NCBI RefSeq assembly: GCF_023161965.1
Contig: NZ_JALNTY010000001.1
Span: 248,001 to 312,000 of the forward strand
Source of the DNA: Anaerosoma tenue
Lineage (GTDB): Bacteria > Actinomycetota > Coriobacteriia > Anaerosomatales > Anaerosomataceae
Direction of reading: 5' to 3'
DNA length: 64,000 nt
In this document: positions 41,814 through 43,956 of the stretch, one piece after another
Position numbering within the stretch: the first letter of the stretch is position 1
How the letters are laid out: each line of letters opens with the position of its first letter
Notes under the pieces: generated by a model
What the model was told of the DNA's origin: nothing
Seen by the model: only the letters and a program-made list of their open reading frames with translations
Database searches by the model: none
Program-made: the position numbers and the translations under genes

Positions 41814-42881
41814 GTGAAGAAGACACCCCATAAGCGCCGGTCCCTGGTGCCCAAAGCCGCGATCGTGGCGGGCATCGTGATCGTGCTGCTCATCGGAGGG
41901 GCGGTCGCCGCAGGTGTGATGGTGCACCGGTCGCGACTCGTGGAGGCGCCCGATGTCACTGGCATGGACTCCGAGGCGGCGCTGGCGGAGATCCGGGCCG
42001 CCGATCTCGTTCCCCGGTTGGCCGGGTCACGGGTCTCTGCGGAGCACGCGGCGGATATCGTCCTCTCACAACGCCCGATGGCCGGGGCGCGCGTCACCCG
42101 CGGCACGACGGTCGAGGTCGTGGTGTCCGCGGGGACGCAGACCATCGCCGTACCCGATGTCGTGGGCGTCGACCTTGACGATGCGTCACGCCAGCTGGAG
42201 CGGATGGGCCTCACCGTCACACTCAAGCCTGACTCACAAGAGACCAGCGGAACGGCAGTGCTGGAGATGTTCCCCTCTCCCGGGACGCTCCTTCACCCGG
42301 GTGACACGGTCCGCCTCACCGTGCCCGGGGCCGCGGCGCCGGCCCACGTGCTGCTTCCATTCGCGCTGGATGGGGTGTCGGTGCTGCTGGATCCTTCCCC
42401 CGGCGAGGCGGGAGAAGGCCAGGACCCGGCCCTGGAAGTGGCGCGACGTCTTGCCGCGCTTCTCAAGGCGTCAGGAGCCCAGGCGACCCTCACCCGGAAC
42501 TCCGCCGCCCTCGCGATGCCTCAGAGTGAACGGGTCACGCGCTCGGCGGAGTCCACCGCCGCGGTCCTCGTGACCGTCGATGTCGCGCCCGGCAAGGGTC
42601 CGGGTATCACGGTGTCCTACCCGGTGAACGATCCCGAGGGGGCGGCCGCATCGCTCGCCCGGTCCATGACGGCCGCGATGCGTCTGCCAGGCGTACGCGT
42701 CAACACGTCCGGCGCGATCCGGGACGATGTGCTCGAAGCGTTCCCGGGCATCGCTGTGCGGGTGGGGCTCGGCGATCCGCGCGACGCTTCCGATCGTGCG
42801 CGGTTCGACGATCCCGGGTGGGCCGATGAGGTCGCCAGGGGGCTGTACCGGGGGTTGGGAGAAGCGTACGGGCAGCGATGA
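41814..42881 (+). CDS. Membrane-anchored PASTA protein with degenerate amidase_3-like domain
   Basis: 355 residues from GTG 41814. A basic N-terminus and one membrane helix (about 16-35) anchor it with the rest outside. Two PASTA repeats follow (about 44-108 and 112-172), which bind muropeptides or beta-lactams in other proteins. Residues 185-355 have the outline of N-acetylmuramoyl-L-alanine amidase_3, but the active-site positions are changed. DPGHGG is DPSPGE (193-198), the usual SIHAN stretch is VTVDVAPG (253-260), and the usual VETGF stretch is VRVGLGD (315-321). Only Glu208 may remain. I infer a non-catalytic cell-wall sensor or regulator, perhaps of the M23 enzyme encoded next. Confidence 0.75.
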   Translation: MKKTPHKRRSLVPKAAIVAGIVIVLLIGGAVAAGVMVHRSRLVEAPDVTGMDSEAALAEIRAADLVPRLAGSRVSAEHAADIVLSQRPMAGARVTRGTTVEVVVSAGTQTIAVPDVVGVDLDDASRQLERMGLTVTLKPDSQETSGTAVLEMFPSPGTLLHPGDTVRLTVPGAAAPAHVLLPFALDGVSVLLDPSPGEAGEGQDPALEVARRLAALLKASGAQATLTRNSAALAMPQSERVTRSAESTAAVLVTVDVAPGKGPGITVSYPVNDPEGAAASLARSMTAAMRLPGVRVNTSGAIRDDVLEAFPGIAVRVGLGDPRDASDRARFDDPGWADEVARGLYRGLGEAYGQR

Positions 42882-42939
42882 GCCCGGTCATGGTGTAGAC
42901 TACATGTCCGTTCGTAGGTGGACGGAGTTTGGAGAGCTT

Positions 42940-43956
42940 GTGGGACGTCGCTCTATCAGGGTCATAACGGCCGCGGTGCTCGTGGTGCTCCTTGCGCTCG
43001 GCTCTGTGGCCTTCGCGGAGCCCACAGAGGTACAGAAGCTCCAGGAGCAGATCAAGGCGCTGCAAGAGGACGTGGAGAAGGCCGGCGAAGCGTACTCAGA
43101 CGCGTACTGGCAACTCGACCAGACCCGGGCCGACATGGCCGAGGTGGACCGCGAGATAGGCGAGTCGGAGGCGCGTCTTTCCGAGGTGAACCAGCGCCTG
43201 TCCGAGCGTGCCGTGGAGATGTACCGCAGCGGCGGCGCCGACTACATGGCCGTGTTGTTCTCGGCCGACGACTTCGACGAGATGCTGCTGCGTCTCGAGT
43301 ACGTGCAGCGCGTGAGCGAGCAGGACGCCGATATCATCGGTGCCGTGAAGACAGTGCGGGCGGAGCTCGACGCCCAGCGGGCCGAGCTGGCGTCTCTTGA
43401 GGAATCGCAGGCCGAAGAGGCCGCCGCGCTCAAGAAGGAAGCCGACAGGATCGAGCGTGAGCTGAAGGCGCAGCAGGCCGAGTACGACAAGCTGAAGAAG
43501 GAACTCGCCGCTGCGATCGCGCGTGAGAAGGCGCGAACCGGCACGACGACCGCGAAGGCCGGTCCCAACGGGATGGTCTTCCCGGTACGCGGGCCCAACT
43601 ACTACAACGACACCTGGGGCGCCGCCCGGTCGGGCGGGCGCACGCACAAGGGCACCGACATCATGGCGTCCACGGGCACGCCGTGCGTGGCTGTCCTGTC
43701 CGGCACGGTGCGATCCAAGTCCAACAGCCTCGGCGGGAAGACGATCTGGCTCACGGCGGATAATGGCTGGGCGTTCTACTACGCACACCTCGACAGCTAT
43801 GCCGTCACGTCCGGGCGCGTGACCGCCGGTCAGGTGATCGGATACGTGGGGAGCACGGGCAACGCATCGGCGAGTGCGCCGCACCTCCATTTCGAGATCC
43901 ACCCCAACGGCGGCGCGGCGGTGAATCCCTACCCGTACCTGCGTGCCATGCAGTGA
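42940..43956 (+). CDS. Secreted M23-family peptidase with coiled-coil domain (EnvC/PcsB-like)
   Basis: 338 residues from GTG 42940, which lies 5 nt behind GGAG and gives a textbook signal peptide: GRRSIR, a hydrophobic core, and cleavage after AFA near residue 26. Residues about 28-200 are a long coiled coil. The M23/LytM domain (about 210-338) keeps the zinc ligands in THKGTD and APHLHFE. This is the layout of division-linked murein hydrolases such as EnvC and PcsB; the intact HxH and H-x3-D suggest real endopeptidase activity. An upstream in-frame ATG at 42904 is disfavoured because a -10-like TAGACT overlaps it. Confidence 0.88.
   Translation: MGRRSIRVITAAVLVVLLALGSVAFAEPTEVQKLQEQIKALQEDVEKAGEAYSDAYWQLDQTRADMAEVDREIGESEARLSEVNQRLSERAVEMYRSGGADYMAVLFSADDFDEMLLRLEYVQRVSEQDADIIGAVKTVRAELDAQRAELASLEESQAEEAAALKKEADRIERELKAQQAEYDKLKKELAAAIAREKARTGTTTAKAGPNGMVFPVRGPNYYNDTWGAARSGGRTHKGTDIMASTGTPCVAVLSGTVRSKSNSLGGKTIWLTADNGWAFYYAHLDSYAVTSGRVTAGQVIGYVGSTGNASASAPHLHFEIHPNGGAAVNPYPYLRAMQ

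Follow-up and report, generated by a model that had tools for sequence, protein, structure and literature searches.

The mycobacterial protein CwlM (Rv3915) is a homologue of the Amidase_3 enzymes whose essential role lies in regulating peptidoglycan synthesis rather than in hydrolysis, and actinobacterial homologues differ in how far they conserve its four zinc residues (PMC4946905). It has also been tied to the PASTA kinase PknB (PMC6180346). CwlM is cytoplasmic or membrane-associated, with two peptidoglycan-binding domains and neither a secretion signal nor PASTA repeats. EnvC, NlpD and ActS follow the logic of a degenerate hydrolase domain serving as a regulator, in their case a dead LytM (M23) domain that activates amidases. 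Within the EnvC-AmiB complex, the LytM domain grips the amidase via an interaction helix in a regulatory insert (AmiA residues 151-194; PMC10268282). Going by PMC8496864 and the titles of PDB entries 7tj4 and 7rag, S. aureus LytH and C. difficile CwlD are active enzymes with activators of their own, ActH and GerS.

The protein considered here is encoded in the window, by which we mean the whole stretch of 64,000 nucleotides of Anaerosoma tenue DNA that was analysed. A putative transmembrane helix and two PASTA repeats precede an Amidase_3 domain that has lost its catalytic site, and we refer to the protein as the pseudoamidase. CwlM would be its closest known counterpart in logic, if both are amidase homologues acting as regulators of the wall. 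Unlike CwlM, however, the pseudoamidase falls in a separate clade and its helix and PASTA repeats are predicted to place the domain outside the membrane, so that it does not have the CwlM layout of peptidoglycan-binding domains and Amidase_3 with no secretion or membrane segment. With EnvC, NlpD and ActS it has in common a degenerate hydrolase domain, but here it is the amidase that is dead and a neighbouring M23 peptidase that is intact. The same order of transmembrane helix, PASTA and Amidase_3 is found in enzymes of Actinomycetota (P0002 of the same genome; L182), although these have one PASTA repeat and an intact zinc site and form a separate clade. LytH and CwlD are close structure matches (Z 21.7 and 22.1, respectively). 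The transmembrane and PASTA half resembles that of the PASTA Ser/Thr kinases (PknB/PrkC/StkP), from which the window protein differs in having an amidase fold and no kinase domain; only this half aligns with the kinase model NF033483 (positions 330-499), scoring 84 bits where the cut-off is 450. We found no paper on a PASTA-pseudoamidase in the open-access literature, which is not proof that none exists.

Architecture, fold and loss of the catalytic site

Table 1. Features of the pseudoamidase gene and its M23 neighbour (positions within the window)
Feature	Position	Strand	Basis or remark
Extended -10-like element TGCTATACT, just 5' of the pseudoamidase start codon	41798..41806	+	Conserved in 16/23 loci compared
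PASTA-pseudoamidase gene, product predicted to be bitopic	41814..42881	+	GTG start at 41814, 355 aa, stop ends at 42881
Putative transmembrane helix, residues 14-40, behind a short basic tail	41853..41933	+	Helix in AF2 model
Two PASTA repeats, about residues 41-173	41934..42332	+	Pfam PASTA; structure match to PknB PASTA
Amidase_3 fold without zinc ligands or catalytic Glu, residues 186-355	42369..42878	+	Structure comparison, profile, alignments
Separate extended -10-like element TGTANACT, upstream of the M23 gene	42894..42901	+	Conserved in 11/20 loci compared
Secreted coiled-coil M23 peptidase, EnvC/PcsB-like, HKGTD and HLHF intact	42940..43956	+	Pfam, Foldseek, motifs

The first-pass annotation had placed the reading frame correctly (Table 1) and had claimed two PASTA repeats, which are borne out by Pfam (90.4 bits, E 7.3e-26, two stretches) and by a structural match to PASTA 1-2 of M. 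tuberculosis PknB (Z 12.8). The product is thus a PASTA-domain protein (PF03793) with its repeats beside a transmembrane helix, in a topology that is predicted. R8 and P13 of the N-terminal tail are nearly invariant among orthologues.

Residues 1-13 form a conserved basic stretch, on the predicted topology cytoplasmic and juxtamembrane, that is RRRPL[VI]PRW-like across the order of the window, and the N-termini of L131-L142, from other orders, carry an LPxxxRxRxPR-like counterpart. This stretch might bind a cytoplasmic partner.

Upstream of the gene, either TGCTATA[CA]T or TGGTATACT was found in the loci that retain the conserved element. Since TGCTATACT stands only a few bases from the start codon, the mRNA is likely to be leaderless. 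A consensus scan found neither a sigma-70 promoter nor a terminator that passed the threshold. The pseudoamidase and M23 genes may be co-transcribed, but each has a conserved promoter-like element of its own.

Pfam assigns residues 203-348 to Amidase_3 at 23.1 bits, or 25.6 bits for the domain alone, just below the curated cut-off of 27. This borderline score is not a chance result, because all 33 members of our alignment A3 match Amidase_3 at E<=0.01, several orthologues exceed the cut-off (the highest at 43 bits) and, in the PDB, a domain profile matches CwlD, AmiC2, AmiC, LytH and Rv3717 with E from 1.2e-10 to 5.6e-6. In the AlphaFold model (mean pLDDT 86), residues 186-355 adopt the Amidase_3 fold, superposing on 4rn7 with Z 22.6 and rmsd 2.4 over 168 aligned residues. 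The domain thus belongs to the Amidase_3 superfamily (PF01520) by both sequence profile and fold. A confident match to a different fold did not appear, and such a fold is rejected.

The catalytic site was compared with those of enzymes in the PDB, by alignment, and with those of two intact Amidase_3 proteins that the same genome encodes. In the window protein DPGH has become DPSP, which replaces the zinc histidine by proline; the zinc glutamate of the EK motif is absent; SIHAN reads TVDVA, with aspartate for the second histidine; and VETG reads VGLG, with glycine for the catalytic glutamate. Hence the two zinc histidines, zinc glutamate and catalytic glutamate that mark an active zinc N-acetylmuramoyl-L-alanine amidase are all missing. 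The losses extend beyond this one protein. Among 65 orthologous domains (53 belonging to the window's order and 12 to further orders of Coriobacteriia), none has histidine at either zinc-histidine position, and the glutamate positions are not conserved. Across the 53 domains of the order, both the DPGH-derived Asp and the VETG-derived Gly are invariant, and Asp replaces the second zinc histidine in 32; neither Asp position is kept in the other orders. A degenerate amidase_3 domain, lacking its zinc histidines and its final catalytic region, had been proposed from the letters alone, and profile, fold and alignments all support it well.

Distribution, age and selection

An orthologue stands at the orthologous place in 56 of 61 relatives. 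Throughout the order the gene lies in a cluster that reads, by names taken from the translations, def-fmt-rsmB-glpX-fmdB (on the opposite strand)-PASTA-pseudoamidase-M23-ECF-type membrane protein-thiamine pyrophosphokinase. In two loci of family f7 (L086, L087) the M23, ECF and thiamine pyrophosphokinase genes are all missing behind the pseudoamidase gene. Other orders of Coriobacteriia (families f17, f20 and f21) also carry the gene behind def-fmt-rsmB-glpX, with the catalytic residues absent. The remaining families of the class, which we take to be mostly gut lineages, gave PASTA-kinase-like matches only, and the gut families have no pseudoamidase. It is likewise absent from the near-complete genomes G010, G040 and G059, and so is not essential to the class as a whole. 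Conversely, G061 (98% complete) has retained the pseudoamidase even though neither an orthologous M23 nor any further Amidase_3 was detected in it.

The dead domain has a dN/dS of 0.036-0.187 in four close pairs, and values for the PASTA half are similarly low. A maximum-likelihood tree gathers the dead domains into a single clade (support 100/99), apart from the CwlM-type and active PASTA-amidase domains, although, with long branches and a root that is not known, the parent of this clade cannot be named. A second G045 fragment, which resembles an assembly duplicate, was left out. Taken together, the absence of zinc histidines from all 65 orthologues, the low dN/dS and the single supported clade establish an ancient pseudoenzyme maintained by purifying selection. 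Recent decay into a pseudogene is rejected by the selection, the synteny and the single ancient clade. The simplest reading of these sequences is that activity was lost once, before the order of the window and the related orders of Coriobacteriia split.

Proposed function, the M23 neighbour and other readings

A dead form that is old, widely shared and under selection is probably there to regulate or to act as an adaptor, and is probably neither an enzyme nor a gene in decay. On balance we favor, at somewhat better than even odds, a bitopic protein that binds the wall and serves peptidoglycan metabolism as an adaptor or sensor, and that is not a dedicated activator of the M23 peptidase. Such a protein would span the membrane once, with its PASTA repeats and dead Amidase_3 domain outside, and the PASTA stalk would hold it in the wall. 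The amidase fold, assuming that it binds peptidoglycan, could then offer a docking or recognition surface through which the protein may cue a wall or division machine to the place or time for its action. The first-pass suggestion of a muropeptide sensor is a possible form of this role. A point against the favored reading is that most invariant residues of the domain look structural.

The main alternative, which we consider unlikely, is a passive anchor, in which the PASTA repeats and the dead domain would do no more than link the membrane to peptidoglycan, with no regulation. Both parts are of peptidoglycan-binding kinds, and among the 65 orthologous domains we found no new invariant site common to all orders. 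The strong constraint across the whole domain nevertheless suggests, without proving, a more specific role than anchoring.

The intact M23 neighbour invites a second alternative, put forward in the first-pass annotation, that the dead amidase is a dedicated activator or sensor of this enzyme, in a reversal of EnvC-amidase logic. Its gene start is best placed at the GTG at 42940 (Table 1), and the product has, besides a signal segment and an M23 domain (85.9 bits), a long coiled coil with similarity to CC_PcsB (40.3 bits). The HKGTD and HLHF motifs are retained in relatives with small variations, and the top Foldseek matches of its model are EnvC in FtsEX complexes, with PcsB weaker. An intact, EnvC-like M23 protein, of a type known to bind amidase folds, favors such a pairing, as does its position: the M23 gene is adjacent and co-oriented in 40 of the 50 order loci with enough downstream sequence. 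Adjacency is, however, broken in the other ten (L058, L063, L064, L071, L075, L077, L081, L084, L086 and L087) and is confined to Anaerosomatales, the order of the window, with none among loci of other orders. Moreover, five family-f5 genomes, G034 and G049 have an M23 orthologue at another place, and no clear orthologue was found in nine genomes that bear the pseudoamidase, five from the order (G032, G045, G053, G055, G058) and four from other orders (G061, G064, G079, G085). These nine gave only weak M23 matches (best E 1e-11 to 1e-17) common to many coiled-coil or M23 proteins; with genome completeness at 62-99% any single absence is weak evidence, but the pattern recurs. Conservation of the pair, which the first-pass annotation had proposed as a check, holds for most of the order and fails in those ten loci and at the loci of other orders, and an obligate pair is rejected by broken adjacency, relocation and the lack of a clear orthologue in several genomes.

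The separate promoter-like elements of the two genes also argue against dedicated activation, as does the pseudoamidase model, in which no counterpart of the blocking and interaction helices that make up the EnvC-docking insert (AmiA 151-194; PMC10268282) lies between strands 251-256 and 313-318. EnvC/PcsB-type proteins are normally controlled by FtsEX, which is encoded elsewhere in the genome (L193:6736-9531, FtsE and FtsX followed by an S41-type, or C-terminal-processing-type, peptidase); no M23 gene stands beside FtsE and FtsX there. Given this resemblance and the presence of FtsEX, we would expect FtsEX to be the controller by analogy. Dedicated activation of the adjacent M23 is thus decidedly improbable: a non-catalytic role for the degenerate domain is well supported by fold, dead site and selection, whereas the reversed EnvC scheme, as a dedicated pairing, is not supported, given the linkage, the promoter-like elements and the missing insert. 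Nor is the ancestral role likely to have been the dedicated activation of this M23 or of any Amidase_3 enzyme, because the M23 linkage is loose, the genes have their own promoter-like elements, the insert is lacking and neither the M23 nor another Amidase_3 was detected in G061. A lineage-specific link within Anaerosomatales is conceivable.

Could the pseudoamidase instead be a partner or decoy of the active enzyme of like layout? The genome encodes an intact TM-PASTA-Amidase_3 paralogue (G000:C1:184439-185581; L032:976-2118), downstream of dnaG-like and rpoD-like genes, and matches to it occur in 48 of the 61 genomes searched (its own and 47 relatives), which lends this idea some appeal. Yet G061 and G077 keep the pseudoamidase with no active Amidase_3 detected, the two proteins fall in separate clades and their genes are unlinked, all of which makes such a partnership very unlikely.

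A PASTA-Amidase_3 protein of another class, L185 (G556:C331), has DPGS for DPGH and keeps SIHCN and VEVGY. Perhaps it has independently begun to turn into a dead amidase.

Least credible of all is that the window protein is still an enzyme with a zinc site rebuilt from other residues, an outcome that the first-pass annotation had itself named as contrary to its proposal: the two aspartates, one invariant in the order and the other present in 32 of its 53 members, might offer ligands, but they are not kept in other orders, no alternative site was seen and 26 of the 65 domains lack both His and Cys altogether, evidence against any such rebuilding.

It is tempting to go beyond the adaptor or sensor that we favor and to see an undescribed family of extracytoplasmic pseudoamidase receptors, gating FtsEX and EnvC-like M23 division hydrolases in Anaerosomatales and related orders. 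We offer this tentatively and think it unlikely as a whole; if true, the PASTA stalk and dead Amidase_3 domain would read the state of peptidoglycan. Dead hydrolases that regulate the wall are already known in two forms, the degenerate M23 domain of EnvC and CwlM, an amidase homologue of the cytoplasm. A conserved protein that is anchored in the membrane and carries a dead amidase outward on PASTA repeats would add a third, from an actinobacterial class that has received little study, and would mean that loss of amidase activity has yielded regulators on both sides of the membrane. The pseudoamidase provides a defined protein and domain with which this prospect is open to experiment.
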